Shown here in pieces: positions 12,286-34,209 of a stretch of 50,378 nt of DNA. Source of the DNA: a virus; IMG/VR virus record IMGVR_UViG_3300033143_006579, positions 1 through 50,378 of that record; one strand, written 5' to 3'. The number at the start of each line of letters is the position of its first letter. Position 1 is the first letter of the stretch. The notes beneath the pieces are model-generated. The model had not been told where the DNA came from and did no database searches. It was given only the letters and a program-made list of their open reading frames with translations. The position numbers were made by a program, and so were the translations under genes.

Positions 12286-12528
12286 ATGAGCGTTAATTTA
12301 TATGAGTTTGGCGATTTATTAAATCATGCTACAACTTTAGGATATGACTGGAATGTTATACATGACATTCTAGTTGAAGATGAAATTCCTCCAATGTATG
12401 AAAGTAAAAAACACGAAATATATTTATGTGATTTGGAGGACAATGAATATGATTATGGTAAAGATACATTAAAAGTGTTGATGTCATTTATGGAAAAAGA
12501 GGATATAGCTAATATGGTGATTGTATGA
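12286..12528 (+). CDS. Unrecognised 80-residue acidic protein
   Basis: Acidic small protein without recognisable domains; good ribosome site (AGGGGAATATA before the ATG). Its end overlaps the start of the radical SAM gene by 4 nt (ATGA type). No membrane segment. It may be co-expressed with the radical SAM protein, but no functional link can be read from the sequence. Confidence 0.65.
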   Translation: MSVNLYEFGDLLNHATTLGYDWNVIHDILVEDEIPPMYESKKHEIYLCDLEDNEYDYGKDTLKVLMSFMEKEDIANMVIV

Positions 12529-13568
12529 ACGATAAAATTCATATATGTAATTGGTTATTGACTAGAAAATGTAACCTTAATTGTTCTTATTGTGCTATTG
12601 TAAAGAACTACAAAGGTAAACCGGCTGAATATCCTGATATGAAATATTATCATAGAAACGAAATGACAACACAGGATATTATTGATGGGTTAAAGAAATT
12701 GAAAAAACATAACCCTGATATGTTCCATTTGTTCTATGGAGGAGAACCATTACTACGAAGAGATATTGCCGATATTATAAATTTCTGTAATAAGGAAGAT
12801 ATACATTATACTATTATTACAAACAACTCGCCTGAGTTGATTGATGATTTAGAAGACCTTTTATTGAAGGTAGATTTTCTTAATGGTCTTACAAGTTCAG
12901 TTGATCCAGTCTTTCATGAAATTGGAGATAGTGATAGAATAAAGAAAAGTATATCAGGTATTATGGGGTTAAAGAAATACAAGGATGTTATAAATGATTT
13001 GGTTGCGGAGATTACAGTGTCCCCGGATGATGTTGATCATTTACTTCCACTTGTAAGAAAATTAACAAAGGAAGGTATTAATAGTGATATAACATTTGTT
13101 GATGTTGCTAAAACTCCATATTATGATTTTTCTAATGTAACTGATCCAAAAGGGTTGGTTATGCCGACTAGAAAATTAGAAACCGTATTAGGAAGGATGA
13201 TTGAAGAAGGGCTTGATGTTCATATGTTAAAAAGTTTAGTAATGCAAACCTTTGATATTCTTCCATCAAATATGGATTGCCAGATTGACAAAACTCTTCA
13301 TAATATAACTGTTGATGCCGATGGGTCTATCAGGTTATGTTTGAGAGTTAGAGGAGTTAGTACTCCAAGAGCAATCGGATTGAACCAGAATTTATTTACC
13401 AAAACAGGGAAGGTAAATACATTTGCTAAAGAGATGATTCAAAGAGATAAGAAGAATTTTTGTAGAGGATGTAATCATACTTGTTTATTAATGTCTTTAA
13501 TGATTGATGAAAATAAAGGTAATGTTGATGAGTTGGTTCATTTAGAAAGGAGATTAGATGAAAGTTAA
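12525..13568 (+). CDS. Radical SAM enzyme with SPASM/twitch-like C-terminal cysteines
   Basis: The 347-residue product has the radical SAM cluster motif CNLNCSYC at Cys16/20/23 after LLTRK, and FYGGEPLLR, the GGE motif that helps bind S-adenosylmethionine. Its C-terminal part has further cysteines (NMDCQ, IRLCLR, NFCRGCNHTC) like the auxiliary Fe-S clusters of SPASM/twitch enzymes. Those families typically modify peptides or proteins, or act as maturases. It is not QueE: it is too long and has extra cysteines. The next gene overlaps it by 11 nt and begins with the VTNSSS motif, which also occurs in two other proteins here, so a substrate relation is a hypothesis. Confidence 0.85.
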   Translation: MNDKIHICNWLLTRKCNLNCSYCAIVKNYKGKPAEYPDMKYYHRNEMTTQDIIDGLKKLKKHNPDMFHLFYGGEPLLRRDIADIINFCNKEDIHYTIITNNSPELIDDLEDLLLKVDFLNGLTSSVDPVFHEIGDSDRIKKSISGIMGLKKYKDVINDLVAEITVSPDDVDHLLPLVRKLTKEGINSDITFVDVAKTPYYDFSNVTDPKGLVMPTRKLETVLGRMIEEGLDVHMLKSLVMQTFDILPSNMDCQIDKTLHNITVDADGSIRLCLRVRGVSTPRAIGLNQNLFTKTGKVNTFAKEMIQRDKKNFCRGCNHTCLLMSLMIDENKGNVDELVHLERRLDES

Positions 13569-14227: not shown

Positions 14228-14551
14228 ATGGCACATGATATTATAGATGATGTAATAGAATTTTGGGAAAAAATAAGGGAAGAAGATGAAGTAACTGTTA
14301 GATTTACAAAAGCTGATAATACAATCAGAATTATGAAATGTACTCTAAACTTCGATAAAATTCCAGTAGATAAAAAACCTAAATCTGTAAATGTTCCACA
14401 AATTGTAAGATTGGCAAAAAAATCACAAATAATTCATGTATATGACCTTGAGAAGAATGATTGGAGATCATTACCTTTTAAAAGATGTGAATGGTTAGAT
14501 ACTCCTACTAATCAAAGATTCTATATGAAACATGCCAGAAGGAGAGGATAA
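14228..14551 (+). CDS. Unrecognised 107-residue protein
   Basis: A small mixed alpha/beta protein with basic C-terminus (KHARRRG). It begins MAHDIIDDVIEFWEKI and has a beta-rich middle; the WRSLPFKRCEW segment could be a nucleic-acid-facing surface, but this is only composition. The ribosome site GGGAGAAATAATT precedes the ATG. Lies directly upstream of the Ubl operon on the same strand with no gap. Confidence 0.65.
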   Translation: MAHDIIDDVIEFWEKIREEDEVTVRFTKADNTIRIMKCTLNFDKIPVDKKPKSVNVPQIVRLAKKSQIIHVYDLEKNDWRSLPFKRCEWLDTPTNQRFYMKHARRRG

Positions 14552-14920
14552 ATGGGAATTCTTGATAAATTACTTGATGAAATCAAGTCGAATAAACTTG
14601 ATGAACAAGTTATGGAATTATGTGATTTAATTAGAATTGAGGAACATGAAAATATTAAACATCATATACATTTACCTAAAGGTCCTAATGTTTTTCTAGC
14701 ATTAGAAGTTCCTGCATCAAGAAAAAATGAAATTGCTTTTGTGTGTTTAGAAAGAGAGTTTAAAGAGCAGTATGTTATTACTTTATGGGGCGGTTATATG
14801 CCTAAAGTAATGAAGGATGGTATTTTAAAGAAATTGAAAGTATGGGAAATTAAGGAAGTTAAAGCAAATAAAATATTAACAGAGTATGCGAAAATAATAA
14901 AATATATGAAAGGCGAATAA
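14552..14920 (+). CDS. Unrecognised 122-residue protein
   Basis: Helical N-terminus (MGILDKLLDEIKSNKLDEQV), beta-rich middle and basic C-terminus. It starts directly after the preceding stop with AGGAGAGG upstream, and its stop overlaps the large E2-like gene by one base (TAATG), so it is probably translated together with the Ubl operon. I see no motif that would make it a component. Confidence 0.65.
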   Translation: MGILDKLLDEIKSNKLDEQVMELCDLIRIEEHENIKHHIHLPKGPNVFLALEVPASRKNEIAFVCLEREFKEQYVITLWGGYMPKVMKDGILKKLKVWEIKEVKANKILTEYAKIIKYMKGE

Positions 14921-17451
14921 TGAATAGAGAATCATTAATTCAAGAAATAAAAGTTCAACCAGATCATACCCAATTAACTTTATCGGATATAAAATTATCA
15001 GAAAATCAAGATACTATACCAATTATAAGGAAAAAATTAATTACAACAACTGAATTTGTAGATAGGTTCAGAAAAAATCTTTATGGTAATGTAAATATGA
15101 ATATTTTACCTAGAAATTGTAGATATTCTGAAGTATTTTCAAGTGGTCATAAAGTATATGTTATAGAGGACTCTCCTAAGGTAAGAACTGTAACAACCGA
15201 TTTTTCTTTGTCTGGAGCGTATGAAAGAGTATGTCAAGCAAAGAAAATTGAAGAATATGGATTACAAAATTTTGATCCTTTGGAAAGACCTCATACATTA
15301 AGACTTGCATTTCCTTATACAGTTTATATTATTATATTAGACTTTAGGAATAAGTTTGAAACATTTAGAGTATATTACAGATTGAGCCCCATTACAACAA
15401 TGGGCGATTATCTATTTAAAACAAATTTATTAAATGTAGGTGGTGATAATCGTGTATGTGTAGGTAGTAATAATTATGGTAATGGAAATACCATAATTGA
15501 TATATGTGATGATTTAATTCATAGATTTTGGTCTTCTGAATTTAATGATGATATTATTACAAGTTATAATAACTACAACAATATTGATGGTGTAAGAGAT
15601 TTATTGATGTGGCAATATAACAGTTTAAAAGATCCTATGTTTGTTTTTGGGGTAAAGTGGCTAAAATCCAGCCGTAATCTTTCTCAAGCAATTGATTATC
15701 TTCGAGACCGTTATGATCAAAATAGTAAAAATATATTTTCAATGTTTAATATAGCACAGAAAACAGATACACCTAATGAATGGAATAATTTTACTGATGC
15801 ATTTTATATTTCAGAAGCAGGAGAAGAAATAAGTGTAGGAGATACTTTAATATTAAATAAAGAAGAATTATTTGTAGAATCTCTAATAGGAAATATAGAT
15901 ACTGGCACTTTAACTAATATTAAATTTGAGACTGATAGAGGAGAACGTAAAATTATAAAAATTACTCCTACTATCAAAAAACAAATAGTTGCTTTTTTGA
16001 AAAATAAAAAATATATTGAATCTATTGAATTGAAAAATGGGGTAACCATAAAGGTAGGAGATATTATTAAATTAATATATCCATTTAAAACCATTCAAAA
16101 GGTTGAAAAAATAAGGAAAAGTCGTAATGGTAATTTTGAAATAAGACTAAATGGAGAGTTTTATTTTCATAATATTATAGAAGCTACCTTACTTGATCTA
16201 AGGAAACCTAAATTTAAAGATATTGATCTGGTTATTGATACCAAATATATTTTAACATCACATACAAGAAATAATGGAAATCAAGCTATCCAAAAATTAA
16301 CAACTGTCAGATTTACCGGATTTGGTGTTGAAAATAAAGATATAACCTTGGATTTTAAACGGTCTAATGCCCATTATGTAAAGATTCCTCTTAATAAGAT
16401 TGATTCTTATGAAAAAAATATATCAGAAATAGATACCTTAATTCAAGCTCCAAAATATTTCAGAATGGCGGTAAATATTTTTTTAAATAAAAAAGACGAT
16501 ATATATTTTGGGGAATCAGAACTATTAACAGATGATATTTATTTAGATAATGTTACTCCTACAATAAATGACCTAGATGAATTATATGATGCAATTATAA
16601 AAGAAAATAAAATCTATATAAAGGGGTTTGATAAAATAACAGAATTTAACGTAGGTGATAAGGTAGTGGTTTCTAATTGGAATGACCCTTCACAGATGTT
16701 AAAAGTAAGAACTGTTGTTGGTTTTAGTCGTAATATTATTGATAATAAACCTGTCTTGAACATGTTATTTAAAGGTAAAAATGAGATGGTATATCATGTT
16801 CCTTATTTAATACAAAATAATTATAATTCAGAGGTTAAGATAAATATTGGCATTGTTCGGCATATAGATCAAAGATATGTTTGTGAACAAGGGACTGTTT
16901 TAGCAGGAACTAAGATTCGTGTTAAAGAGGCAGGAATATCATTCTTTCCAAAAAAGGACACAAATATAGTTATAGGTGTTTTAACTGATACTAATTGTGA
17001 ACCTTTTGTGTTATGTTCAAATTGTTGTACTATATGGTTGAGCGATTATTTTGATAAATTCAATCACTACTTAATAAATACTCCTGAATGGAAAAAGTAT
17101 GATCATGCTACAATAGATCATATGAAACTTAATATTCAAAATGGAGATATGTATTGTGATGGTGATGGTTTTCCTAAAAATATTATAGCATATTCCAGAA
17201 ATTATAAAAATATAAGATCTTTTAATATAAATACATTAACTTCATCTTATACTGGGTATTCAGATTCTTATACCCAAAAATTCATAAAAGATAATTGGAG
17301 AAGGTATGGTTTTATAAATCCTAGAGTTAAACCCGGGATTATGGCTGATATGCCTAAAATAGGGGCAATGCCTAATTTTACAGGTGGATATACTAAAGTA
17401 GATACAGGATGTCAATTTACAATTGACGAAAGGGCAATTAATAATGTTTAA
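14920..17451 (+). CDS. Large protein with N-terminal E2-like (PRTRC-B-like) domain
   Basis: In this 843-residue product, about residues 125-200 read FPYTVYIIILDF, a second strand, then LLNVGGDNRVCVGS with a candidate active Cys180. The NV...(R)VC(V/L)G pattern is what I recall for the E2-like PRTRC protein B. The remaining 600 residues are beta-rich with repeated VGD segments (about 310, 372 and 580) suggesting SH3-like barrels, and a CSNCC cysteine group near 690. The JAMM peptidase, E1-like and Ubl genes follow without gaps, which supports an E2-type role. The domain call rests on a short motif plus context; the large C-terminal part has no assignment. Confidence 0.55.
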   Translation: MNRESLIQEIKVQPDHTQLTLSDIKLSENQDTIPIIRKKLITTTEFVDRFRKNLYGNVNMNILPRNCRYSEVFSSGHKVYVIEDSPKVRTVTTDFSLSGAYERVCQAKKIEEYGLQNFDPLERPHTLRLAFPYTVYIIILDFRNKFETFRVYYRLSPITTMGDYLFKTNLLNVGGDNRVCVGSNNYGNGNTIIDICDDLIHRFWSSEFNDDIITSYNNYNNIDGVRDLLMWQYNSLKDPMFVFGVKWLKSSRNLSQAIDYLRDRYDQNSKNIFSMFNIAQKTDTPNEWNNFTDAFYISEAGEEISVGDTLILNKEELFVESLIGNIDTGTLTNIKFETDRGERKIIKITPTIKKQIVAFLKNKKYIESIELKNGVTIKVGDIIKLIYPFKTIQKVEKIRKSRNGNFEIRLNGEFYFHNIIEATLLDLRKPKFKDIDLVIDTKYILTSHTRNNGNQAIQKLTTVRFTGFGVENKDITLDFKRSNAHYVKIPLNKIDSYEKNISEIDTLIQAPKYFRMAVNIFLNKKDDIYFGESELLTDDIYLDNVTPTINDLDELYDAIIKENKIYIKGFDKITEFNVGDKVVVSNWNDPSQMLKVRTVVGFSRNIIDNKPVLNMLFKGKNEMVYHVPYLIQNNYNSEVKINIGIVRHIDQRYVCEQGTVLAGTKIRVKEAGISFFPKKDTNIVIGVLTDTNCEPFVLCSNCCTIWLSDYFDKFNHYLINTPEWKKYDHATIDHMKLNIQNGDMYCDGDGFPKNIIAYSRNYKNIRSFNINTLTSSYTGYSDSYTQKFIKDNWRRYGFINPRVKPGIMADMPKIGAMPNFTGGYTKVDTGCQFTIDERAINNV

Positions 17452-18598
17452 TGTATTTGTTAACGATGGAACTCAAGAAATGCCAAATGATGATATTTTA
17501 TATATCGTTTCTAAAGAGGGTATATTTCTAAAAAAGAAAGTAGGACTAGTAGAAAGTTTAACAAAGGTAAATAAAATATCAATTTTGGATACAATGGGGT
17601 TAAAAGAAACTGCTTCATTAGATATTCCCAAGATCCCTATTGGAAATTTTGCCAAAATAGCAGAATTTTTCAATGAGATTTGTAAAGCATCTAGGGGAGA
17701 AGCAATTACTTTGATTTATTTTAATCAAAAAACCAGGAAATTTAAATTCTTTATTCCATATCAGTTAATATCTCCTGGATCTTTAAATTACTTAACTGAA
17801 TCTTTTAAAGGCTATGATTTAATTGGAGATATTCATAGTCATGGTACTATGGGAGCTTTTCATTCTGGAGTTGACGATCATGACGAACAATATTTTGATG
17901 GAATTCATATTACGTTAGGGAATGTTTCTGGTAGAGATAATATTTCGATTTCAGCATCTCTGGTTGTAAATGGAACTAGATTTATGATTGAACCACAAGA
18001 TTATATTGAAGGGGTTGAACACACTGAATCATCATATAGTCCGATATCTTTTGTTAAAGGAAATACCGGCAGTGGGGTGTCACATTTTGGTAGTTTATTT
18101 GAAGGATTAAATACTTCTTATCCTACTTATTCATCCAAAAATAAGTTCTATAAAGTTTTGGCAACTGAGGAACAAAGAATTTTTAATCAAGATTGGTTAG
18201 ACAAGGTAGAAGAAAAAAATTCTTTTCTTAGAGTTTCTGATGCGGTTGCTTACGAATCTCCTGTTTATGAACAGTTCTCAGATTATAGAGAAAATTTTAA
18301 GAAAGAACAAGATAAATTAGTAAATAAAGGAAAAGCTGCTACAATGGAAATATCTTCTATTCTTGATGAAAATGATGAAAACCCATGTGCAACTTGTGTA
18401 TTCAAAGCACATAAAATTGATTATGTTATTGATAATATTATTGAGGATGTTGAAGAAGAAGAAGAAAAAAATGTATTTGAAATTGAAGAGGATAACTATA
18501 TTAGTAGCCCAGAAGAAAACCCATCACCAGGTCTAATTCAAAAAAGTTTAGATTTATTACGGAAAGGAGGAAGTTTCTTTAAATATGGACCAGATTAA
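17444..18598 (+). CDS. JAB1/MPN (JAMM) metallopeptidase, candidate Ubl-processing enzyme
   Basis: The 384-residue product has an exact JAMM motif: His131-Ser-His133, seven residues, Ser141, two residues, Asp144 (GDIHSHGTMGAFHSGVDD). An upstream Glu in RGEAITLIYF fits the catalytic acid. JAMM enzymes cleave isopeptide or peptide bonds after ubiquitin-like proteins. In bacterial Ubl cassettes they trim the Ubl or remove conjugates. The C-terminal third is acidic and has a CATC pair. ATG 17444 overlaps the upstream gene by 8 nt, with AAAGGG upstream; the next gene overlaps by 14 nt. Phage tail-assembly JAB proteins (lambda K type) are an alternative, but the neighbours argue against it. Confidence 0.88.
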   Translation: MFNVFVNDGTQEMPNDDILYIVSKEGIFLKKKVGLVESLTKVNKISILDTMGLKETASLDIPKIPIGNFAKIAEFFNEICKASRGEAITLIYFNQKTRKFKFFIPYQLISPGSLNYLTESFKGYDLIGDIHSHGTMGAFHSGVDDHDEQYFDGIHITLGNVSGRDNISISASLVVNGTRFMIEPQDYIEGVEHTESSYSPISFVKGNTGSGVSHFGSLFEGLNTSYPTYSSKNKFYKVLATEEQRIFNQDWLDKVEEKNSFLRVSDAVAYESPVYEQFSDYRENFKKEQDKLVNKGKAATMEISSILDENDENPCATCVFKAHKIDYVIDNIIEDVEEEEEKNVFEIEEDNYISSPEENPSPGLIQKSLDLLRKGGSFFKYGPD

Positions 18599-19283
18599 AA
18601 TTATAGGATTGGGAGGCATTGGTTCAATTTTATCTGAAAAGATTTGTAGGTTTATCAATTTTTCAGATGATCTTGATTTTGAATTAACATTTGTAGATGG
18701 CGATACTTACGAATTCAAAAATTATGAAAGGCAAGAATTCGGAATGATCGGTAAGAAAGCAGAAGTTAAATCAAGTGAGCTTTCAGCTAAATTTGGGAAT
18801 ATGATAATTGAACCAATGTTTGCTTTTATAACAGAAAACAATATTGCAGAGGTTATTAAAGAAAACGATCTTGTTTTTCTATGTGTTGATAATCATAAAA
18901 CAAGAAACATTGTTTCTCATCATTGTAAAACTCTGAAAAATATTACCTTGATTTCCGGCGGTAATGATTATTATGATGGAAATGTACAAATTTATATTAG
19001 AAAGGAAGGTGAGGATATAACTCCAGATTTATGTGCATATCACCCGGAGATTGAAACCCCTGAAGATAAGTTACCGGAAGAAATGTCATGTGAAGAATTA
19101 GAGGCATCAGAACCTCAATTATTATTCACAAACTTGGGTGCAGCAACTCTAATGTGTTGGGCATTCTACAACGTTGTAGTAAGAAAGGATAACCGAATAA
19201 GCGAAGTATATTTCGATATTCGATCTATGAATTCTGATTCTAAAGTCAGAATTATTAAACAAACCCCGAAAGGAGAAGCGTAA
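18585..19283 (+). CDS. ThiF/E1-like Ubl-activating enzyme (PRTRC ThiF-like)
   Basis: The 232-residue product begins with a Rossmann nucleotide-binding loop IIGLGGIGS, followed by VDGDTYEFKNYERQ, the E1/ThiF block whose Asp and Arg contact ATP. CVDNHKTR matches the second conserved E1 segment. MSCEELE contains Cys169 in front of a C-terminal helix pair, a position where PRTRC-type ThiF proteins also have Cys, so it may be the thioester or zinc-linked residue. It would adenylate the C-terminal Gly of the Ubl encoded next door (19286). The gene overlaps the JAMM gene by 14 nt, tying the two together. Confidence 0.88.
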   Translation: MDQIKIIGLGGIGSILSEKICRFINFSDDLDFELTFVDGDTYEFKNYERQEFGMIGKKAEVKSSELSAKFGNMIIEPMFAFITENNIAEVIKENDLVFLCVDNHKTRNIVSHHCKTLKNITLISGGNDYYDGNVQIYIRKEGEDITPDLCAYHPEIETPEDKLPEEMSCEELEASEPQLLFTNLGAATLMCWAFYNVVVRKDNRISEVYFDIRSMNSDSKVRIIKQTPKGEA

Positions 19284-19285
19284 CA

Positions 19286-19774
19286 ATGACAAAGTATAAT
19301 TATGATAATTTGGATTCAAAAACAGTGGCAGAACTTAGAGAACTGTGTGCTTATGATCTTGATATTTCTGGTATGTGGAAACAACGCAAGGATACCATTA
19401 TCAAAGCAATTCTTGCTAAAACTACCCCCAAGAAACGCAGAGCCGCAGTGGCAAACCCTACTGTAACTAAACAGGTTGATACTTCCCACGATGTAAATAT
19501 TGTAGGAGGTACATTCACAAGCGAAATAACAGCTCCCGATGCACGTATAGGATCCAGAATTTCAACCACAATCCGTGTTTCATGTGGTGCTTCATCAGGA
19601 GATTTTCCTGTAGTTGGGAAAACTGTTGGTGCTGTAGGTGAATTCTTGAAAGAGGTTCTTAATGTAGAAACTCTTGCTCGTGGTCTTGTAAACGGTACTG
19701 AAGTTGATGGAGATTACCTGTTGAAACAAGGTGATCAGCTTGAGTATCTTAAACCTGCAGGGAAAAAAGGGTAG
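19286..19774 (+). CDS. Ubiquitin-like protein with N-terminal SAP-like domain
   Basis: The 162-residue product has two parts. Residues 10-43 (SKTVAELRELC...SGMWKQRKDTIIKAIL) fit a SAP/HeH helix-turn-helix, which usually binds nucleic acid. From about 95 to 162 is a MoaD/ThiS/PRTRC-C-like beta-grasp domain with VNGTEVDGDYLLKQGDQLEY, ending KPAGKKG at a terminal glycine. The GD-x-L-E-(Y/F)-x-K-x-AG-x-KG ending is the Ubl signature here. The Gly should be adenylated by the E1-like protein and conjugated to a target. Codons are visibly richer in G and C than in neighbours, compatible with high expression. Good AGGAG site. Confidence 0.8.
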   Translation: MTKYNYDNLDSKTVAELRELCAYDLDISGMWKQRKDTIIKAILAKTTPKKRRAAVANPTVTKQVDTSHDVNIVGGTFTSEITAPDARIGSRISTTIRVSCGASSGDFPVVGKTVGAVGEFLKEVLNVETLARGLVNGTEVDGDYLLKQGDQLEYLKPAGKKG

Positions 19775-19790
19775 GTTTAAATATTAATAT

Positions 19791-19942
19791 CTTGTTTGGT
19801 GGGTTAAAGCGAAGCGACTAAGCGGGTGACAGAGCAACAAGAAGCAGAAAGGCATTTCTGTGAAAACGGGCTCTTAAGAGGCAGTGGTCGTATATATCAC
19901 ATATGTAGTGTTATAATACTGATACCCTGCCCACCAAACAAG
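19791..19942 (+). ncRNA. Structured RNA (152 nt) with 13-bp closing helix, in the Ubl operon
   Basis: CTTGTTTGGTGGG (19791-19803) pairs perfectly with CCCACCAAACAAG (19930-19942). Inside are the hairpin CAGAAA-GGCA-TTTCTG (19845-19860), a helix AGAGC/GCTCT (19831-19835 with 19870-19874) enclosing it, and a third arm with GGT/ACC, GTAT/ATAC and CAC/GTG pairs (about 19886-19926). No open frame of note crosses it and it is GC-richer than its surroundings. Not tmRNA (no CCA end or tag frame), not tRNA, and no RNase P core was found. It lies between the Ubl gene and a small gene on the same strand, so it may be processed from the operon transcript or be a regulator of it. Class unknown. Confidence 0.7.
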
Positions 19943-19965
19943 TTTATTTATGAAAGGAAACATCT

Positions 19966-20223
19966 ATGGGATATAATACTGAAGCTGATAAACTCATAAA
20001 ACTATTTGAATATGTAGGAGAGAAGAATACTTTATTGTTTTCATTATTCTCTTATAAAGGAGCTAAACCTAAACTTCAAATACATCGTAGTTTTGAAAAA
20101 AGAGATAAAACTACAGGATATGGAAAAATGGGTAGATTAACTGGTCAAGAGCTAACGTATTTTTTAAGTATTTCCAATGAGATATTAGAAATAATTGATA
20201 ACTGGGACGTGTATGAAAGGTAG
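19966..20223 (+). CDS. Unrecognised 85-residue protein in Ubl operon
   Basis: Helical, basic small protein (MGYNTEADKLIKLFEYVG...) with a central KGAKPKLQIHRSF segment that may form strands. GAAAGGAAA precedes the ATG. It sits between the structured RNA and the second ThiF-like gene, 3 nt before it. No motif recognised, so it is listed as a possible accessory of the conjugation system by position only. Confidence 0.65.
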   Translation: MGYNTEADKLIKLFEYVGEKNTLLFSLFSYKGAKPKLQIHRSFEKRDKTTGYGKMGRLTGQELTYFLSISNEILEIIDNWDVYER

Positions 20224-20226
20224 GCT

Positions 20227-21087
20227 ATGGTATATAAAACAATAACGGTAATTGGAGTTGGTTCTTTAGGAAGTTTCATTATTAATGCTATATCAGATAT
20301 TGAAACCGTTAAGAAAGTTATATGCGTAGATCATGATATTGTTCAAACTAAAAACCTAAAAAACACTTTATATCCAAGTTGTGATGTAGGTAAATTAAAA
20401 GTTGACTCAATATATGACATGCTATCTAATAAAAGAAAAGATTTAAAAATTCAACGGATCAACCAAAAGTTCATAGAGGGACAAGTTAAAATTCCTGATA
20501 GTGATCTAGTTATAGATTGTAGAGATTATACTTATAACAGAAGTAAAATTATAGATGTGAGATTGTATATTTCTTCGCGATATATGATAATTGATTGTAG
20601 AAAGAATGTAAATTATGAAAAACAATACAAAGGTAAATATACTTCAGAATTAACTAAAATTGATTTAAGACACGCAGCATCTATATTTTCAACATTGGTA
20701 GGATATGAGCAAATCAAGTCTTTAATAAAAACACAATCAGTACAAAAGGTTGAACTTGATTACTTAAAAGGATTCATTAAACAAGAACAAGATATCATTT
20801 ACGATTCAAATTTTGGTCAAAAAAGGTTAGTAAATCTTCCTGATAATGTATTTCCAATTATGGAAGCAAATAAAAAAACACCTATAAATTTATGTTTAGG
20901 AACTAAAGATAGTCCAATATCAGAAAATACTATACCAATAGGAATGTTGACAAATGGAAATGACGTTGTTGAAAGTTTAAAAGCAATGCTGAGTGTTTCA
21001 GATAGTTTTAATAACTACGTAGTTTGTCTGTCTCAAAACAACAACCAATTTATAGTTGAATTGGTTCCGGAAACTGGAGCTGCTTAA
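20227..21087 (+). CDS. Second ThiF/E1-like protein (diverged)
   Basis: The 286-residue product has ITVIGVGSLGSFI, a Rossmann GxGSLGS loop, followed by CVDHDIVQTKNLKNTLY, the E1/ThiF adenylation block with NLKNT in place of NLxRQ, and PSCDVGKLK. Thus the fold is E1-like, but the usual Arg of the NLxRQ motif is lost. VIDCRDYTYNRS replaces the canonical D-N segment. It may be a partner subunit, a pseudo-E1 or an enzyme for another substrate. It is longer than the first ThiF-like protein, with an unassigned C-terminal 120 residues. The adjacent small E2-like gene starts 1 nt after its stop. Confidence 0.75.
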   Translation: MVYKTITVIGVGSLGSFIINAISDIETVKKVICVDHDIVQTKNLKNTLYPSCDVGKLKVDSIYDMLSNKRKDLKIQRINQKFIEGQVKIPDSDLVIDCRDYTYNRSKIIDVRLYISSRYMIIDCRKNVNYEKQYKGKYTSELTKIDLRHAASIFSTLVGYEQIKSLIKTQSVQKVELDYLKGFIKQEQDIIYDSNFGQKRLVNLPDNVFPIMEANKKTPINLCLGTKDSPISENTIPIGMLTNGNDVVESLKAMLSVSDSFNNYVVCLSQNNNQFIVELVPETGAA

Positions 21088-21088
21088 A

Positions 21089-21433
21089 ATGGAAGAAACA
21101 TATCATAAAATTATAATTCCAAAGAGACTTATATACAAAAAACAATTATATCAAATTACTAAATTTGATAGAAAGTATATTATTAATAATTATAGAATTC
21201 AAACGACAGAAGGATTGTTTTTATGGTTGTTTGTAGATAGTCCTCATCCAAATGTTAGTCCTAAAACTAATATATTTTGTACTCCATCACAAATGAATGA
21301 AGAGTATATATCAAATAAATTTTTATTCTTTATAGAGACTTTATTATCAACGTTTAATGCTGATGATTGTTATTTCACTCCGTGGGGTGAAATTGAATAT
21401 GAAAAAATGGTAGTAGGAGAATTTAATATATGA
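21089..21433 (+). CDS. Small candidate E2-like protein (HPN...Cys)
   Basis: In this 114-residue product, after strands near residues 30-50 (FLWLFVDS), residues 53-64 read HPNVSPKTNIFC. Eukaryotic E2 enzymes have HPN followed eight residues later by the active Cys; here Cys64 is nine residues after Asn55, and strands precede while a helix follows, as in the UBC core. Together with E1-like, JAMM and Ubl genes upstream this makes an E2 function plausible, but the match is a single motif in a short chain. ATG 21089 is used (GGAG 12 nt upstream); a longer start inside the ThiF-like gene seems unlikely. Confidence 0.5.
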   Translation: MEETYHKIIIPKRLIYKKQLYQITKFDRKYIINNYRIQTTEGLFLWLFVDSPHPNVSPKTNIFCTPSQMNEEYISNKFLFFIETLLSTFNADDCYFTPWGEIEYEKMVVGEFNI

Positions 21434-21615
21434 CTTATCATGAAAAAAGCGACGAAGAAATCAAAGAATTTATTGACGAATCAATAGAGAAACTAGAAGA
21501 TATTGCTAAAGATGGCTGTAATGTTTTAATTGATTTAATTGTAGGAACAGTTAAAAATAAATTAGTTGAATATTTAAAAAATAATAAGATTATCTTTAAG
21601 GATAAAGATAAATGA
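21430..21615 (+). CDS. Unrecognised 61-residue acidic/helical protein
   Basis: Short helical protein (DEEIKEFIDESIEKLEDIAK) with a hydrophobic stretch VLIDLIVGTV that could be amphipathic, and a Lys-rich end. It overlaps the E2-like gene with ATGA and the next small gene with ATGA, showing tight coupling. No family recognised. Confidence 0.6.
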   Translation: MTYHEKSDEEIKEFIDESIEKLEDIAKDGCNVLIDLIVGTVKNKLVEYLKNNKIIFKDKDK

Positions 21616-21812
21616 TAGATTTAAATAAAATTATAGAAGACGCAGTGAGGAAAACGGCTGAAGGAATTACAGATTCAAAAATAACAACTAAAGATGCAAC
21701 AGAAATAGTAAATGAATTAATGCCAGTAATTGACGAATTGATTTCAAAAAGAGTTAAAGAACACCTTGCTGAAATTGCTTCTTATATATTTCAAAAAATA
21801 AATAAACCATAG
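21612..21812 (+). CDS. Unrecognised 66-residue helical protein
   Basis: Small protein predicted helical (MIDLNKIIEDAVRKTAEGI...). Starts within the preceding stop (ATGA) and is followed by AGGAG and the RNA polymerase beta' gene, so it may be transcribed with the polymerase. No motif seen. Confidence 0.6.
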   Translation: MIDLNKIIEDAVRKTAEGITDSKITTKDATEIVNELMPVIDELISKRVKEHLAEIASYIFQKINKP

Positions 21813-21823
21813 GAGATTTTTAT

Positions 21824-24547
21824 ATGCCAGGTATTCTAGATTTTGAAGAAGTATGTGAAGAACTAACCGAAGTTACAACAACAAAGATCATGAACAAAAA
21901 AAAATTTCATGAAGCTGGATTATTTTCTGAACAGATCTTTGGTCCATTGAAGAATTATACTTGCCAATGCGGAACATATCATGGTGTTTCTAAGATAGGT
22001 GATAACTGTGATTTATGTAGAGTTGATATATTAAACAGTGATGAAAGAAGAAAAAGATTTGCCAAGATAGTTCTGCCTATTCCAGTTGTTAATCCTATAT
22101 TTTATGATCTTCTTGTAAACATAGGAGGAATAGGGGTTAAAAAAGCACTTAATAAATTAATGAAAGATGAGAATAGTGTATTATACAATGACGGTAATGG
22201 AGATTTTGTTGTAGTATCAGATATTGAAGCTGTTCCAGAGGGAGTTGAAACATTCGAAGGTATTGATGCCATTGAAACTATGATTCACGATTTATCAAGA
22301 GATATGGCAGAAGAAGGAAGACCTGATTGGAAACTTGTATTTGATAATATTCATAAGTTAATAATTAGAAGTGTTATAGTTCTTCCACCTGATCTAAGAC
22401 CTGCCGCAAAAGGAATAAGCAAAAATAACCAAATTCTTGACAAAATTAACAGGTACTATACTCAAATTCTAACTAAAAAAGAATCTATGAGAAGTACTAT
22501 AATTGAGATCAGGAGAGATAAACAGTTATTTTATGTTTATTTCAAACAACTACAGAAAGATGTAAATGAATTATATCAGCATATTTTAGATAAGATGGCA
22601 AAAAAAGAAGGGTTGATTCGCGGTCATATTTTAGGTAAAAGAATTGACTTTTCTGGAAGAGCTGTAATTGTTCCCGAGCCGACTTTAAGTTTAGATGAAT
22701 GTGTCCTTCCATATCTTATGATATTGGAAATATTTAAATTAAAAATAGCTAAAAAATTAATTGAAATAGGCAAGTTTAAACTATTAAATAAAGCTATTAC
22801 TTTCATTGATGAATGTATTGAAACTCAATCACCTATTTTATTTACTATTTGTGAACTTATTGTAGTAGATAAGGTATGTATATTAAATAGACAACCTTCT
22901 CTACATAGATTAGGAATGTTAGGATTTAAAATTAAAACAAGTCTTGATTCAGTTATTAAAATACATCCATTAATATGTGCTCCGTTTAATGCTGATTTTG
23001 ATGGAGACCAAATGGCTGTATATATTCCTATTTCGAATAGAGCTAAACAAGAAATCATTGATAAAATGTTCGTTACAAAAAATCTACACAGTCCTGCAAA
23101 TGGAAAATTAACTACAATTCCAAGCCAGGATATTATTTTAGGAGTTTATGCTATAACATCTGGGCATATTCCTGAATATACAACAATGAATAAATTAGCT
23201 AACATGAGTGAAGGGGAAATATTATTCAATGATTGTTTACCTCTTAATTTTACCCCAATAAAAGGTCCTGTTGATAGTAAACGATTAATGATAATTTTAA
23301 ATGATATTAAAGATTTATATCATGAAGATGAAGTAGCTGAATGTTTAGATAATATCAAAAAATTAGGATTTAAATTTTCTACAGTCTTTGGTACAACTAT
23401 GTCTTTAGATGATTGTATCTTTGAAAGATCTGGTGAATTGAGAGATGCTATATATGAACCTGAAAATATCAGACAACAATTGGTTAATTTTTCAAGTGAA
23501 AAGCTTACAGATGAATTAAGAAAGAATTTTGAGTATGCATATTTGATTGAATCGGGAGCTAGAGGTAGTTGGGATCAGGTTAAACAAATGATATTAACAA
23601 GAGGATTCATTTCAAATTTTAATGGAGAAATTCTTGATACTCCAATTAAACATAGTTTGTTAGAAGGATTAACAGAGCAAGAATTTTTTAATTCAACTTA
23701 TGGTTGTAGAAAAGGACTAATGGATGTGGCTGTTAATACAGGGACTTCCGGTTATTTATCAAGAAAACTAATATTTACATGTGCTAATTTACAAATTGAT
23801 GTTGATATGGAGGATTGTGGAACAACTGATTATTTACAGGTTCATATTGATTCATATCAGAAATTATTGATGCTTGATCAAAGATATTATTTAGAAGATG
23901 ATGTTCTTAAAAAGATTGATATTGATGAATATTCTGAACAAGCTAAACAATTGATAGGAACTACAATTCTTTTAAGAAGTCCTATTTTATGTAAAAATGA
24001 AAAGGTATGTAAGACATGTTATGGTGATACATATAAAAAATTACATTCTAAATTCATAGGTATTATTGCAGCACAAACATTAGGAGAGAGGGGAACTCAG
24101 TTAATTCTAAGAACATTTCATACGTCAGGTTCTGCTGTTATTAGGGGAGAGGAAGAAGAAGGGGAAGGGTCTGATGATATGAGACAACACGATATTGTTG
24201 CTGATCTTTCAACAGTTGCCAGTCTATTACATAAATTCAAAGGTAAAACATATACTGATATAACAGCAGATTTATTTAAAGTATATGGAAAAAATATTTA
24301 TCATATTCATTTTGAATGTGTTGTTTCTCAGTTAATGTGGAATGGTGATAAAAAATGGAGACTTTATGAAAATAGAGATGCCTTAAAACCTAAATTCTTT
24401 TCAGTTCAATCAGTACCTTCAAATGAAAGTTGGATTTTAGGATTAGCATTTAGTAATCCTAAAAGACATATCTTGAAAGGTCTTCTGAATACTGGAGAAT
24501 ATAAAGGTGTAATTGATAAAATATTATTAGGAGAAAGAATTGGATAA
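21824..24547 (+). CDS. DNA-directed RNA polymerase beta' subunit (bacterial type)
   Basis: The 907-residue product has the N-terminal zinc site YTCQCGTYHG...CDLC (about 44-66), LGKRIDFSGRAVIV, and the catalytic loop NADFDGDQMAVY (about 388) whose three Asp hold the active-site Mg. MEDCGTTDY and LCKNEKVCKTCYGD give the second bacterial zinc site, and ERGTQLILRTFHTSGSA marks the bridge helix/trigger loop region. It is far shorter than E. coli beta' (1407), lacking large insertions, but not split as in phiKZ-like phages. With the beta gene downstream it could make a phage polymerase core. No alpha, omega or sigma gene is in this window. Ribosome site AGGAG. Confidence 0.96.
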   Translation: MPGILDFEEVCEELTEVTTTKIMNKKKFHEAGLFSEQIFGPLKNYTCQCGTYHGVSKIGDNCDLCRVDILNSDERRKRFAKIVLPIPVVNPIFYDLLVNIGGIGVKKALNKLMKDENSVLYNDGNGDFVVVSDIEAVPEGVETFEGIDAIETMIHDLSRDMAEEGRPDWKLVFDNIHKLIIRSVIVLPPDLRPAAKGISKNNQILDKINRYYTQILTKKESMRSTIIEIRRDKQLFYVYFKQLQKDVNELYQHILDKMAKKEGLIRGHILGKRIDFSGRAVIVPEPTLSLDECVLPYLMILEIFKLKIAKKLIEIGKFKLLNKAITFIDECIETQSPILFTICELIVVDKVCILNRQPSLHRLGMLGFKIKTSLDSVIKIHPLICAPFNADFDGDQMAVYIPISNRAKQEIIDKMFVTKNLHSPANGKLTTIPSQDIILGVYAITSGHIPEYTTMNKLANMSEGEILFNDCLPLNFTPIKGPVDSKRLMIILNDIKDLYHEDEVAECLDNIKKLGFKFSTVFGTTMSLDDCIFERSGELRDAIYEPENIRQQLVNFSSEKLTDELRKNFEYAYLIESGARGSWDQVKQMILTRGFISNFNGEILDTPIKHSLLEGLTEQEFFNSTYGCRKGLMDVAVNTGTSGYLSRKLIFTCANLQIDVDMEDCGTTDYLQVHIDSYQKLLMLDQRYYLEDDVLKKIDIDEYSEQAKQLIGTTILLRSPILCKNEKVCKTCYGDTYKKLHSKFIGIIAAQTLGERGTQLILRTFHTSGSAVIRGEEEEGEGSDDMRQHDIVADLSTVASLLHKFKGKTYTDITADLFKVYGKNIYHIHFECVVSQLMWNGDKKWRLYENRDALKPKFFSVQSVPSNESWILGLAFSNPKRHILKGLLNTGEYKGVIDKILLGERIG

Positions 24548-24751: not shown

Positions 24752-27700
24752 TTGAATATTATTAATCCGAACTTCAAGATCAACGAAGATGATAGCATCT
24801 TCAAACTTAGACGTGAAGAGTATAATACCATTCTTGAAAAAGTTACAGAGATAGTACACCCTGTTGAAGATATTGGATTTACAGTCACGACTGTAGATTT
24901 GAAAGATTCAAAATTTTCATCAGGGGAATTAAGTAAAACAATAAAACAAAAACTCGTTATTAGATTACAAAAAGGAACCTCAGAAATTGATATAAGTATG
25001 ATAATCCCTGAACTCATAGATAATAACTATATTATGATTAATGGGAGGAAGAAAATACCTCTATTTCAATTATTTGATGTACCTGTTGTAACTCGTGGTG
25101 AATCAATTAAATTAAGAACTAACGTAGCCACAATTATGATATTTAAGGATAAAGAAGCACCTTTTGTCAAAGTAAGTTTTATGTCAAAGAAAGTATCGTT
25201 GGCATTACTTATGTACGCTTCATATACAATTGAAGAATTGGTCGAGAGGTTTGATTTAACTAATATTGAACCGAATGAAAACAGTTCTGATTTATATGAG
25301 TGTTTCTTATATGATTTGAAACTATATTATGATGAATCAAGGGATTATACTCAGGATAATTTTATTCTGGAGGTTGGTGGTATTTACTCCAAATATAATA
25401 AAAGATCCAAAGGAGAAGATATAGTATATGCTCTTGATTTAATTACAAAAGTAGATATTATGTCTGCCAAATTCTTTCAGACTGATAGTGTTTTAAATGA
25501 ACTTATATTTTCTCTTAATCATGATATTGATGATACACAATTTATAAACAAAAGAATTCGTTGTTTTGAATATATGATTCTTGGAAAGGTTTCTAAAGCT
25601 ATTTTCGATCTATGTGTTTCATGTAGAGTTGCTAGACAACCTAAATTCAATGTTAATTCAACACATATTCTAACAGAGTGTAATGTATCTGATATTGTTC
25701 AATTTGATTTTTCTATTAATCCTATTGAGGAACTGACTAAACTGTCACGAATAAGTTTGTTAGGTCCTGGAGGATTTAAAAGGGAAAATGTACCTAAACA
25801 TTTAAGAGATATACATCCTTCAATGTTCGGAAGAATATGCCCAGTGGATACTCCAGATAGAGATAATTGTGGTATTCTTCAAAATCTTGTTCCGAATGTA
25901 AAAGTGGATGAAAATATGAAATTTACTGATGAAATTAATGAGAGACAGCCAATTTCTATTCCTGTATCCATGATTCCATTTTTGCAAAATGATGATCAGA
26001 CAAGACTTCAAATGGCATCATCACAAATGAGACAAGCGATCATGCTTAAGAAATTTGATACCCCATTGATTAGTTCTGGATGTGAAGGATTATATACAGA
26101 TCATACTCAATTTGTAAAAAGAGCAAAACGTGGTGGAGAAGTTTTGTATGTTGGTGGAGAATATATTATAGTAGTTTATGATAATGAAGAAGCAGAAATA
26201 TTTGATATTTCACATAGAAATATTTATGTAGATAATATGGACTTTATGAATATTTATGTTACTCAAGGTGATAAATTCCATCAGGGAGATATCTTAGCGG
26301 AAAGTAATTATTGTAAAAATGGAAAAATAAATATAGGTAAAAATTTATTAACAGGTATTATGTCTCATTATGGAAACAATTACGAGGATGGGATTATCAT
26401 ATCAAAACGATTAGTAGACGAAGGAATATTTACTTCAGTGCATAATAAAGATTTATCATTTATATTACCACCTAGTAAAGTTCTACTTCCTTTACCAACT
26501 GAAAATGGAGAATATGCCCCCTTACCTAAAAGGCTTGAGAGAGTTAAAACTGGGGACCCTTATGCCATTATTAAAGAAATGAATTCTTATGATTTCAATT
26601 TAATCTTTGGTGAAGAAATAACTCTAAAAGCAACTCATGATTTTATTATAAGCGATGTTAAAATATATCCTAATGATTGGAATGATGATATTCCGGAGTA
26701 TCAAGAATGGGTTGAAGCTCAAATTGAAAAACAGCAATCTGAGGAAAAAGCATTTCAGAAAATTATAACTGATGCAATACCAAAAGAAGCTGCTGAAAAA
26801 TTCATTACGGATAATTCTTTAAATAAATTTTCATATATAGGTAAGTTCAAGAATAAGGGAGAACGAATCAATGGTATGAGAATTGAATTATCTGGAGTAT
26901 ATTTTAGAAATATTAAAGTTGGAGATAAAATAGCAAATAGACATGGTAATAAGGGTGTTATATCAAGAATTATAGAACATGATAAAATGCCAAAAATTGA
27001 AGATGGTCGAAATGTTGATATTTGTATTAATCCTCTTGGTATTATTTCTCGTATGAATATTGGTCAGTTGTTTGAACTTCATCTTGCCGAATCATTTTGT
27101 AATTTGAAAAAGATGTTGAAAGATATGGTAGATGAAAAAATTGATCAAGCTCATATTAAAGCAATTTTTATGGAGTATATTAATGTTGTTGACAATACTA
27201 GAGATGGATGGTATACACAACAAGCATCTGAAAACTTACCAGAAAAAATTGATAAAGAATTTATCAATAATATGACTCTTATTCAAGCTCCTTTTGAATC
27301 AGTAACATTTGATCAGTTGAAAAAAGCGCTTGATTTTACACAAACTAAATTTAAACAGAAAGTTTATGATCCTCTATCCAAAACAAATATTGTTAAAGAT
27401 GTTGCAGTAGGGAAAATTTATTTCTTTAGAATGGTACATATCGCTGATGAAAAGATAGCAGCAAGAGGTATAGGAGCGTACTCACGACGCACATTACAAC
27501 CCCTAGGAGGGCGTAAAAATAAAGGGGGCCAAAGGTGTGGAGAAATGGAAACAGCGTGCTTAATCGGTCATGATGCGCCGGAGAATCTCTTTGAATTCTT
27601 TACAACAAAGTCTGATTGTATTGATCTAAAGAATAAATATATAAAGAAATACGTAGATACAGATTTAATTGAAATTCCAGAAGATGAAGATGAAAAACCA

Positions 27701-27757
27701 GAATCAAATAAATTACTAGATGCTTATTTTAAAGTTGTAGGTGTCGATATAGACTAA
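24752..27757 (+). CDS. DNA-directed RNA polymerase beta subunit (bacterial type)
   Basis: The 1001-residue product has HLRDIHPSMFGRICPVDTPD, the hallmark block of bacterial beta. It continues with GKNLLTGIMSHYGNNYEDGI, KVGDKIANRHGNKGV and, near the end, IAARGIGAYSRRTLQPLGGR with GGQRCGEME. The core active-site residues therefore look intact. It starts at TTG 24752 with a strong AGGAGGA ribosome site; no ATG lies nearby in frame. Order is beta' then beta, the reverse of the usual bacterial rpoB-rpoC arrangement. It is shorter than bacterial beta (about 1340), as expected for a stripped phage version. Confidence 0.96.
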   Translation: MNIINPNFKINEDDSIFKLRREEYNTILEKVTEIVHPVEDIGFTVTTVDLKDSKFSSGELSKTIKQKLVIRLQKGTSEIDISMIIPELIDNNYIMINGRKKIPLFQLFDVPVVTRGESIKLRTNVATIMIFKDKEAPFVKVSFMSKKVSLALLMYASYTIEELVERFDLTNIEPNENSSDLYECFLYDLKLYYDESRDYTQDNFILEVGGIYSKYNKRSKGEDIVYALDLITKVDIMSAKFFQTDSVLNELIFSLNHDIDDTQFINKRIRCFEYMILGKVSKAIFDLCVSCRVARQPKFNVNSTHILTECNVSDIVQFDFSINPIEELTKLSRISLLGPGGFKRENVPKHLRDIHPSMFGRICPVDTPDRDNCGILQNLVPNVKVDENMKFTDEINERQPISIPVSMIPFLQNDDQTRLQMASSQMRQAIMLKKFDTPLISSGCEGLYTDHTQFVKRAKRGGEVLYVGGEYIIVVYDNEEAEIFDISHRNIYVDNMDFMNIYVTQGDKFHQGDILAESNYCKNGKINIGKNLLTGIMSHYGNNYEDGIIISKRLVDEGIFTSVHNKDLSFILPPSKVLLPLPTENGEYAPLPKRLERVKTGDPYAIIKEMNSYDFNLIFGEEITLKATHDFIISDVKIYPNDWNDDIPEYQEWVEAQIEKQQSEEKAFQKIITDAIPKEAAEKFITDNSLNKFSYIGKFKNKGERINGMRIELSGVYFRNIKVGDKIANRHGNKGVISRIIEHDKMPKIEDGRNVDICINPLGIISRMNIGQLFELHLAESFCNLKKMLKDMVDEKIDQAHIKAIFMEYINVVDNTRDGWYTQQASENLPEKIDKEFINNMTLIQAPFESVTFDQLKKALDFTQTKFKQKVYDPLSKTNIVKDVAVGKIYFFRMVHIADEKIAARGIGAYSRRTLQPLGGRKNKGGQRCGEMETACLIGHDAPENLFEFFTTKSDCIDLKNKYIKKYVDTDLIEIPEDEDEKPESNKLLDAYFKVVGVDID

Positions 27758-28187: not shown

Positions 28188-28445
28188 ATGAATAACAAAT
28201 TTTGTCCTGTATGTGGAGCAGAAATTATATTTGAATATATTACACAAGTTAGAACATTTAAAATTGATGCAGGTACAATCGTTCGAGATGATGCTTGGCA
28301 AGGGAGTCCTTGGGATGATCCGCTTTTACAATTTAGATGTGAGGATGATCCATCTCATGATTTAGGTGATAGTGATGAATTATGCGAATGGAAAGATTCT
28401 GTTGAAATGGGTTATTTTCGTATGAGAGATGAAGGGAGATTATAA
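28188..28445 (+). CDS. Small zinc-ribbon-like protein
   Basis: The 85-residue product begins MNNKFCPVCGAEIIFEY, a CxxC zinc knuckle, with one more Cys (FRC) later and an acidic C-terminal half. ATG 28188 has GAGAGGAG upstream, directly after the stop of the membrane protein; longer in-frame starts would lie inside that gene. No specific family recognised. Confidence 0.65.
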   Translation: MNNKFCPVCGAEIIFEYITQVRTFKIDAGTIVRDDAWQGSPWDDPLLQFRCEDDPSHDLGDSDELCEWKDSVEMGYFRMRDEGRL

Positions 28446-28446
28446 G

Positions 28447-29304
28447 TTGACATTACCTGATATACAGCAAACGGAACCTATGATTAAACTTCCGATTGCT
28501 CAAGTTGGAGTTGAAAATGTTGAAGTTCCTTTCTTACTAGAATTGAAATCAGGAGGGTTCCGGCAGATCGTTGCTAACGTATCTATCAGAACAAACCTTA
28601 ATTCAAATGAGAAAGGAATTTCAATGTCAAGATTATTATTAACATTGAAACCTTATTTAGATGTTCCTTTAAAAAGAACTTTGATTCAAACAATTCTTAA
28701 TGACTTGGTTATGAATGTTGAAACCACAAAAGCATTTATAAGATTTGACTTTAAATTACCTCTTACAAGACATTCGCCTATTTCTGATAATTCATTTGTA
28801 CTTTTTTATAAGTGTAGATTTGAAGGTCAATTTTCTATTGAAAATCAAAACCATGCTGATGAATTTGATTTCTTTCAAGGGGTTAAGATTCAATATGCTT
28901 CATATTGTCCATGTTCAGCTGGACTTTGTGAACATCTTGCTAGGCAAAATAAACAAGGATTTCCTCATGCTCAAAGATCTTTTACTGATATTTTAGTACG
29001 GGTTCAGAAGGATAAATATGTATGGCTTGAAGATATTATTCATTCAGTTGAAGGGGTTTTACCGACCCTGCCTTATCCTGTTATTAAGAGAATTGATGAA
29101 CAGGAGATTGCTAGAATTGCAGGATCAAATCCTATGTTTGTAGAAGATGCAATAAGAGCAATCTCACAAACATTATATTCAAATGATGACTTAGCAGACT
29201 GGATTGTTAAATGTAGTCATGAAGAATCAATCCATACATCTGAAGCAATAGCTATAAATTGGAAAGGAGTTCCATACGGGTTTAATGGAAATTACTACTT
29301 ATGA
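28447..29304 (+). CDS. folE2: GTP cyclohydrolase I, type IB (FolE2-like); TTG start
   Basis: The start LPDIQQ and VGVENVEVPF match the N-terminus of FolE2, and SYCPCSAGLCEHLARQNKQG followed by FPHAQRS gives its zinc-site Cys and the HxQRS block. FolE2 makes dihydroneopterin triphosphate from GTP, the precursor both of folate and, through QueD, of 7-deazaguanine. The gene lies about 22 kb from the QueD-like gene. I chose TTG 28447 (AAGGGAG upstream, right after the previous stop) because FolE2 proteins start at xLPDxQ; an ATG at 28429 would add six residues. Its end overlaps the TIM-barrel gene by ATGA. Confidence 0.85.
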   Translation: MTLPDIQQTEPMIKLPIAQVGVENVEVPFLLELKSGGFRQIVANVSIRTNLNSNEKGISMSRLLLTLKPYLDVPLKRTLIQTILNDLVMNVETTKAFIRFDFKLPLTRHSPISDNSFVLFYKCRFEGQFSIENQNHADEFDFFQGVKIQYASYCPCSAGLCEHLARQNKQGFPHAQRSFTDILVRVQKDKYVWLEDIIHSVEGVLPTLPYPVIKRIDEQEIARIAGSNPMFVEDAIRAISQTLYSNDDLADWIVKCSHEESIHTSEAIAINWKGVPYGFNGNYYL

Positions 29305-34038: not shown

Positions 34039-34209
34039 GTTCAGTACAAGGATTTTAAGGTTCGTCTTTTTATTATTAAATTTTTATTAGCAAAAAAACT
34101 AATAGTTAAAAAAAAAGGAGTTACAAGATGCCGTTTAACAATCGAAATAGTGATGATAGTGAAATCATGGATAAAGTTAAAAAAGGGAAGAGTAAGATTA
34201 TCGGAATAG
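34039..34209 (+). pseudogene. Possible decayed short gene (57 codons, no start codon)
   Basis: AAAGGAGG at 34024-34030 is a strong ribosome site followed, about 8 nt on, by GTT CAG TAC AAG in an open frame of 57 codons to TAG at 34207-34209. It lacks ATG, GTG or TTG, and it overlaps the start of the SPFH gene in another frame. The product would be Lys-rich and basic (VQYKDFKVRLFIIKFLLAKK). The spacing from the promoter element to GTT (36 nt) nearly matches the 35 nt seen before true starts elsewhere, suggesting a start codon lost by mutation, or a non-canonical start. Confidence 0.35.

Follow-up and report, generated by a model that had tools for sequence, protein, structure and literature searches.

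The 50,378-nucleotide virus record IMGVR_UViG_3300033143_006579 (IMG/VR), which was analysed over its whole length and is called the window below, probably encodes a reversible ubiquitin-like (Ubl) conjugation system. The genes form a single + strand string at positions 14920-21433, composed of a core quartet (E2L, JAMM, E1 and SAP-Ubl) and of an added pair (ThiF2 and a mini-E2, E2S) that would act as a second arm. A first-pass annotation of the same DNA had described one operon with all the parts of a Ubl pathway; the six open reading frames (ORFs) lie where it had placed them, and every part that it assigned is supported by our analysis. The record, of 50 kb, may be a fragment. The six genes are the following:

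14920..17451, + strand: E2L, E2-like (UBC) protein of 843 aa with a long C-terminal extension; Prok-E2_D match, conserved Cys
17444..18598, + strand: JAMM/JAB metalloprotease, predicted to deconjugate and to process Ubl precursors; PRTRC_A and Prok-JAB matches, HSH-x7-S-x2-D motif
18585..19283, + strand: E1, putative Ubl-activating enzyme of the ThiF/MoeB type, 232 aa; ThiF E 1.1e-18, PRTRC_ThiF E 4.5e-9
19286..19774, + strand: SAP-Ubl, N-terminal SAP/Rho-N helix domain and C-terminal β-grasp Ubl; Rho_N, TGS and ThiS profiles
20227..21087, + strand: ThiF2, second E1-like protein, 286 aa; ThiF E 2e-10; C-terminal β-β-α-β-β domain at 20884-21069
21089..21433, + strand: E2S, putative mini-E2; HPN at 21245-21253, Cys64 at 21278-21280

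The start of the JAMM gene was moved from TTG 17423 to ATG 17444, as judged from its relatives. Gene junctions range from -14 to +3 bases, with the sole exception of a 191-base gap 3' of the Ubl gene, and the string runs via two small ORFs into the genes of RNA polymerase (RNAP) β' (21824) and then β (24752). This six-gene arrangement, together with the motifs of its products, is far beyond chance.

E1 carries a GLGGIG loop (18606-18623), R49-Q50, a CVDN segment and C169. All 37 homologs share GxGGxG, D38, R49-Q50, K58, D102 and a single cysteine, C169, and RQ is kept in 68 of the 69 polymerase-linked loci. E1 has the complete set of adenylation residues (GxGGxG, the Arg finger in RQ, Lys and catalytic Asp), and Cys169 (19089-19091) is its candidate catalytic cysteine. 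In JAMM, the expected residues are E86 (17699) and H131-x-H-x7-S141-x2-D144 (17834-17875); none of the residues for metal binding and catalysis (E86, H131, H133, S141 and D144) varies among 23 homologs, and the motif is kept in 68/69 polymerase-linked loci. The window protein matches PRTRC_A (E 4.7e-12, below the cut-off) and Prok-JAB (E 1.6e-5), and, by profile, RPN11 is nearest to it among solved structures (E 0.0014). Some relatives have several CxxC pairs, resembling zinc ribbons, in their C-terminal tails (L003:8492-9982 and L004:5846-7228); the window JAMM keeps one pair only.

The modifier consists of a SAP/Rho-N domain (about 19304-19423) and a single Ubl domain (about 19559-19771), with the C-terminus PAGKKG at 19754-19774. 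Among 35 relatives, Rho_N matched 30 (best E 3.8e-13), TGS 26, ThiS 25 and Ub-Mut7C 13; the ThiS and TGS E-values are modest (best 6e-4). From these profiles and the alignment, the protein is a predicted β-grasp modifier with a C-terminal Gly. K161-G162 is invariant in the Ubl alignment, and KG was found at or close to the end in 67/69 polymerase-linked loci. The relatives terminate in KG, KGC, KGR or KGF (KGC in 17 of the 69 polymerase-linked loci), and the Ubls of metagenome-assembled genomes (MAGs) have KG plus a short tail (KGLAA and similar), which is what would be expected if JAMM trims precursors. The SAP/Rho-N domain was present on the Ubl in 67/69 polymerase-linked viral loci, as compared to 2/10 other viral loci and 0/51 cellular loci. 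A sequence-profile search of the PDB with the Ubl gave nothing significant; DUN1 (E 0.0097), which matched in part, was not retained. The JAMM motif, the glycine loop and CVDN segment of E1 and the AGKKG end of the Ubl, all reported by the first-pass annotation, were read directly in the window.

That annotation had itself singled out the E2 character of the proteins at 14920 and 21089 as the point on which it could be refuted, and both assignments are supported as probable. In E2L, Prok-E2_D covers residues 164-216 of the window protein with a weak score (E 0.0017), and it matches 24 of 30 relatives (best E 3e-6). The conserved cysteine stands without HPN, in whose place is the motif N172-x7-C180-x-G (15433-15465; Asn172 at 15433 and Cys180 at 15457-15459). 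The N-to-C spacing is the same as in eukaryotic E2s, such as those of the UBE2D family (N77-C85), and C180, N172, W204 and D163 are invariant in the 30 E2L sequences. In the mini-E2 the motif is HPN-x8-C (21245-21280), with H53, P54, N55 and C64 conserved over 34 relatives, and H[PV][NH]...C was found in 69 of 70 mini-E2s of polymerase-linked loci. The AlphaFold model of this protein (pLDDT 93.7, pTM 0.85) gave a Foldseek list in which the top 20 PDB matches were all E2/UBC enzymes, although each match is weak by itself (TM about 0.4, E 0.16-1.2); among viral structures, the E2 of Bodo saltans virus, a giant virus, matched best. UQ_con matches one relative (E 0.0033). Sequence-profile searches of the PDB gave no significant match with either E2L or the mini-E2, and a comparison by hhalign of the mini-E2 with the UBC region of E2L aligned the cysteines without reaching significance (E 0.08). 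In the distant locus L131 the mini-E2 reads HPNCDKNGYYCLG, a layout of the eukaryotic active-site type.

ThiF (PF00899) recognises both E1-like proteins. ThiF2 has a GVGSLG loop and ends in PETGAA; the ETGAA tail is conserved in 70/77 ThiF2 sequences, and the RQ Arg finger was found in none of the 77. The structure model (pLDDT 87.5) matched ThiF in the PDB (Foldseek E 3e-8), then Cap2, MoeB and UBA5, and the predicted fold is clearly that of the E1 superfamily. The last ~65 residues are predicted as β-β-α-β-β, a strand order from which this domain may be, with less confidence, β-grasp-like; its comparison by hhalign with the Ubl was not significant (E 0.09-0.45).

When the E1 alignment was used as query, 40 viral loci were obtained, and about 40 contigs have the six gene families in the same order. 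In order to avoid selection on the Ubl system itself, RNAP β' alone was also used as query. Among the best 80 of 518 matches, 59 loci had at least 8.5 kb upstream of the RNAP β' gene, and all six genes were there in 49 of these (ThiF2 in 56, JAMM 55, E2S 53, E1 52, Ubl 52 and E2L 51); these frequencies apply to the near clade, and the two scans share some contigs. The order SbcC, radical SAM, WYL_2, small ORF, E2L, JAMM, E1, Ubl, ThiF2, E2S, RpoC, RpoB, FolE2 recurs in nearly all charted loci. The first-pass annotation had considered such a set in a phage, next to its RNAP genes, to be unusual. Its position is confirmed; it is not a one-off, being found in dozens of viral contigs, and at least the core is present in two isolated phages.

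The distances of each gene correlate with those of RpoC in 53 non-redundant loci (Mantel r lowest for E2S, 0.52, and highest for JAMM, 0.78; p 0.001), and in a tree of E1 sequences (103 in all) a branch with support 100/99 separates the 20 of polymerase-linked viruses from the others. Taken together, these results indicate that the module is inherited along with the polymerase, and they fit a single acquisition followed by vertical inheritance. Some loci have lost part or all of it. L114 (= L033) has the quartet and the polymerase without ThiF2 and the mini-E2, and L110 has ThiF2 and the mini-E2 in the usual place without the quartet; a quartet-type E1 was not found anywhere in its 92-kb contig, which may be a fragment. 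L111 and L126 keep the RNAP, and none of the six genes was seen there; L111 retains the WYL_2-type neighbour. Thus, quartet and pair are each able to remain where the other is missing, and the polymerase where both are, as far as these possibly fragmentary records go, since the genes could lie elsewhere in the genome. Distant members (L128, L131 and L139) have divergent ThiF proteins, JAMM and mini-E2 upstream of RpoC. L131 (2075-5601 and 7302-9999) has two ThiF proteins, JAMM, the mini-E2 and a large ORF of a different type (443 aa; SHPNVNAGDDVICIG) with an HPN...C motif. Two viral-type contigs with the module (L207 and L208) were binned in Thermoplasmatales and Heimdallarchaeota MAGs, by misbinning or on account of an archaeal host; the host could be bacterial or archaeal.

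Among known systems, the core quartet is, by gene content and profile matches, of the type 6d/PRTRC-like kind. The bacterial operon of type 6d comprises genes for a small Ubl, a JAB protein, an E1-like and an E2-like protein (Iyer, Burroughs and Aravind 2006, PMC1779556, Table 1, row 6d). As in the window, these are adjacent separate genes, the Ubl has a C-terminal Gly, and the E2 has a conserved Cys and lacks the HPN histidine, as in E2L. A fifth protein, α-helical and conserved, also belongs to type 6d. The window differs in having SAP/Rho-N on the Ubl, an E2 of 843 aa, the added ThiF2 and mini-E2, and the RNAP genes 3' of them. The likeness to plasmid PRTRC cassettes (TIGR03734-03738) put forward by the first-pass annotation stands for the core, which has a PRTRC_A-like JAMM, a PRTRC_ThiF-like E1 and a Prok-E2_D domain. 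However, the scores are all far below the NCBIfam cut-offs (45.9 vs. 101.8 bits for PRTRC_A, 36 vs. 144.75 for ThiF and 10.9 vs. 131.45 for B), PRTRC_parB was found in 0/5 long viral records of uncertain completeness, and PRTRC_C had no match in the records searched of the polymerase-linked clade. Membership of PRTRC was rejected, as every tested cut-off was missed and PRTRC_parB was not found.

Core cassettes are clustered in two isolated phages, Bacillus phage vB_BauM_KLEB27-3 (OM634661; Ubl gp199, E2 gp196, JAMM gp195, E1 gp194) and Salmonella phage Arash (OQ632216; Ubl, E2 gp248, JAMM gp247, E1 gp246); in the stretches read, ThiF2, the mini-E2 and an adjacent polymerase were not seen. In KLEB27-3, gp199 (L005:6676-7425), annotated as hypothetical, contains four tandem Ubl repeats in one ORF, separated by KAGVKG|M in the manner of polyubiquitin. 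The Ubl ORF of Arash (L059:107-307), which ends in GTKG, is unannotated and lies in another frame than the gene annotated there, and the Arash E2 and E1 genes carry the label structural protein. Cellular quartets were found by deeper alignment in MAGs of Methylomirabilota, Deltaproteobacteria, CPR, Chloroflexi and Lentisphaerota (E1 identity about 34-51%); unlike the viral loci, they lack the ThiF2/mini-E2 pair, SAP on the Ubl and an RpoC of this kind nearby. In one Chloroflexi MAG (MGR_bin130), five contigs (L263, L270-L272 and L281) have quartet-type E1 copies, an unexplained multiplication.

Bil (BilABCD) and CBASS Cap2 share with the window the E1/E2/JAMM logic of Ubl conjugation. Cap2 is a fused E1-E2; here, in contrast to both systems, the parts are separate, virus-borne and polymerase-linked. 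In Bil, the Ubl (BilA) has two domains and BilD joins an inactive and an active adenylation domain in one chain (PMC11354881), whereas the window has one Ubl domain after SAP/Rho-N, not two in tandem, and E1 and ThiF2 as separate ORFs. The new elements are the SAP-Ubl fusion, the added ThiF2/mini-E2 pair and the polymerase linkage. No account of a phage-encoded Ubl pathway was found in the open literature searched, outside of which lie most subscription journals and preprints, nor does one appear in a 2021 overview covering 224 jumbo phages (PMC7824862).

Family membership and the near-invariant catalytic residues are read from the sequences, and from these families we infer the chemistry (adenylation, relay, conjugation and removal). 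E1 would adenylate the C-terminal Gly of SAP-Ubl by means of R49, K58 and D102, and the Ubl would be loaded on Cys169 and handed, in a thioester relay, to Cys180 of E2L. E2L would then join it to targets through their lysines or other nucleophiles; with less confidence, the long C-terminal extension of E2L might pick these targets. JAMM is expected to cut KGC- and KGR-ending precursors back to KG and to take the tag off. Since the tag carries the nucleic-acid-binding SAP/Rho-N domain, tagging may also tether the target to DNA or RNA, although we hold this step with less confidence. ThiF2, without the Arg finger, and the mini-E2 (HPN...Cys64) may form a second, separable transfer arm, less certain than the core, whose modifier could be the C-terminal β-grasp-like domain of ThiF2 or SAP-Ubl itself. 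The likeliest targets would be the phage's own transcription or DNA-processing proteins, because the module lies in one gene string with the RNAP across the whole clade.

Several points weigh against this interpretation. Operon linkage alone does not identify targets, and the polymerase can do without the system in some viruses, as L111 and L126 indicate. The presumed UBC fold of E2L depends on a weak Pfam match and a conserved Cys, the Foldseek E-values of the mini-E2 are all above 0.1, and neither an E3 nor a conserved proteasome was found.

The role of ThiF2 also has other explanations. It may be a pseudo-E1 that forms, together with the active enzyme, a split E1 heterodimer, as in SAE1-UBA2 or in BilD with its inactive half; the C-terminal domain of ThiF2 would recruit E2s, and all six proteins would serve one pathway. 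This is a good rival, possible even if we do not favour it: RQ, missing in every ThiF2, is present in 68/69 E1s, an inactive and an active adenylation domain are united in BilD (PMC11354881), and the β-β-α-β-β order fits an E2-recruiting ubiquitin-fold domain. However, the pair stands without a quartet-type E1 in L110 (a possible fragment) and the quartet without the pair in L114, which means that neither half strictly needs the other. It is rather unlikely, instead, that the virus has two independent Ubl pathways, the second being a compact one in which ThiF2, with its own modifier fused C-terminally, is served by the mini-E2. Activation of the fused modifier would take place in cis or in trans, or the modifier would be set free; the ETGAA tail is reminiscent of a MoaD-type tail, and we know of no E1-Ubl fusion with a dedicated mini-E2.

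As to the purpose of the system, the attack of phages on host proteins by covalent modification is well known, and host proteins (defence proteins, host RNA polymerase, ribosomes) could be the ones tagged, and thereby inactivated or redirected. The system is virus-encoded, and such tools are abundant in large phages (PMC7824862); nevertheless, synteny and co-inheritance with the polymerase resemble a core function more than a fast-changing anti-defence gene, and counter-defence or host take-over appears to us a minority prospect. A virus-carried defence against competing phages, acting on virion proteins like Bil or CBASS Cap2, is improbable. The PADLOC E1-E2 profiles match both E1 and ThiF2, Bil reportedly interferes with phage assembly (Hor et al. 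2024), and in Arash the related cassette adjoins genes labelled structural, but the locus is not a variable defence locus, being conserved across a diverse clade beside RNAP and SbcCD, and the Bil and Cap2 architectures are not matched. Tagging for degradation by a protease, to which the proximity of the JAMM profile to RPN11 and a proteasome/HslV-family protein in one related virus would point, is quite improbable, considering that the proteasome family was found in 1/18 records and that AAA_2 unfoldases were never above the cut-off, even if host proteases could serve. On this count (1/18), proteasome coupling was rejected as a general rule. The protein in question has 174 aa (L287:4153-4677, on the 248-kb contig of L070) and belongs to a virus with the Ubl module; it was absent from the 17 other records searched. 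Least probable is a sulfur-carrier or cofactor pathway composed of a MoaD/ThiS-like Ubl, a MoeB-like E1 and the nearby MoaA-like radical SAM protein. It agrees with the MoeB/ThiF matches of E1, the ThiS matches of the Ubl and the MoaA match, among others, of the radical SAM protein; against it are the two E2-type cysteine proteins, the JAMM and a tail in KG rather than GG. The molybdopterin/sulfur-carrier pathway was rejected, as MoaE and rhodanese were each found in 0/17 viral records.

The prokaryotic Ubl conjugation systems known to us belong to bacteria, plasmids or archaea, and those studied best act against phages. If the reading of a virus-encoded conjugation system is true, a full conjugation-deconjugation pathway as a near-core viral feature, with a nucleic-acid-binding domain fused to it and the viral RNAP in the same string, would reverse this direction. 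The module beside the polymerase suggests that these uncultured viruses of microbes may, in the course of infection, tag proteins of their own or of the host, and whether viruses of microbes control their own transcription or the host by Ubl tagging would become testable. The natural losses, which split the system into two separable halves, are ready-made experiments, and the core cassettes in two cultivable phages open the question to bench work.

The genes within and around the six-gene string, with their occurrence in the 47 loci surveyed, are the following:

12525-13568, + strand: radical SAM protein, upstream neighbour; Radical_SAM E 3.7e-14; synteny in 32/47
14228-14551, + strand: WYL_2 protein, upstream neighbour; WYL_2 E 1.8e-8; synteny in 33/47
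14552-14920, + strand: 122-aa protein, upstream neighbour; synteny in 30/47
19966..20223, + strand: small variable protein of 85 aa between Ubl and ThiF2; homologs in 5/47, not a conserved part
21430..21812, + strand: two small overlapping ORFs (61 and 66 aa) between E2S and RpoC; homologs of the second in 27/47
21824..24547, + strand: RNAP β' (RpoC), single ORF with NADFDGD motif; 49-64% identity among relatives (alignment)
24752..27757, + strand: RNAP β (RpoB); in 39/47, RpoC likewise

The RNAP β' of the window is about 27% identical to phage RNAPs (tblastn). The window also encodes a terminase large subunit, a protein matching a virion structural protein and a weak tape-measure match, as well as gyrase/topoisomerase subunits and SbcCD-like genes. 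The radical SAM protein, which scores as PapB/viperin/MoaA-like, is kept beside the Ubl genes and was not seen in L111, a locus without them. FolE2 (GTP cyclohydrolase; 28429-29304) is conserved 3' of RpoB, and QueC was found in 6 of 17 related records; the two suggest 7-deazaguanine modification of DNA or tRNA. Finally, an SPFH/Band_7 (stomatin-like) protein, which also matches phrog_11908, is encoded at 34128-35474.

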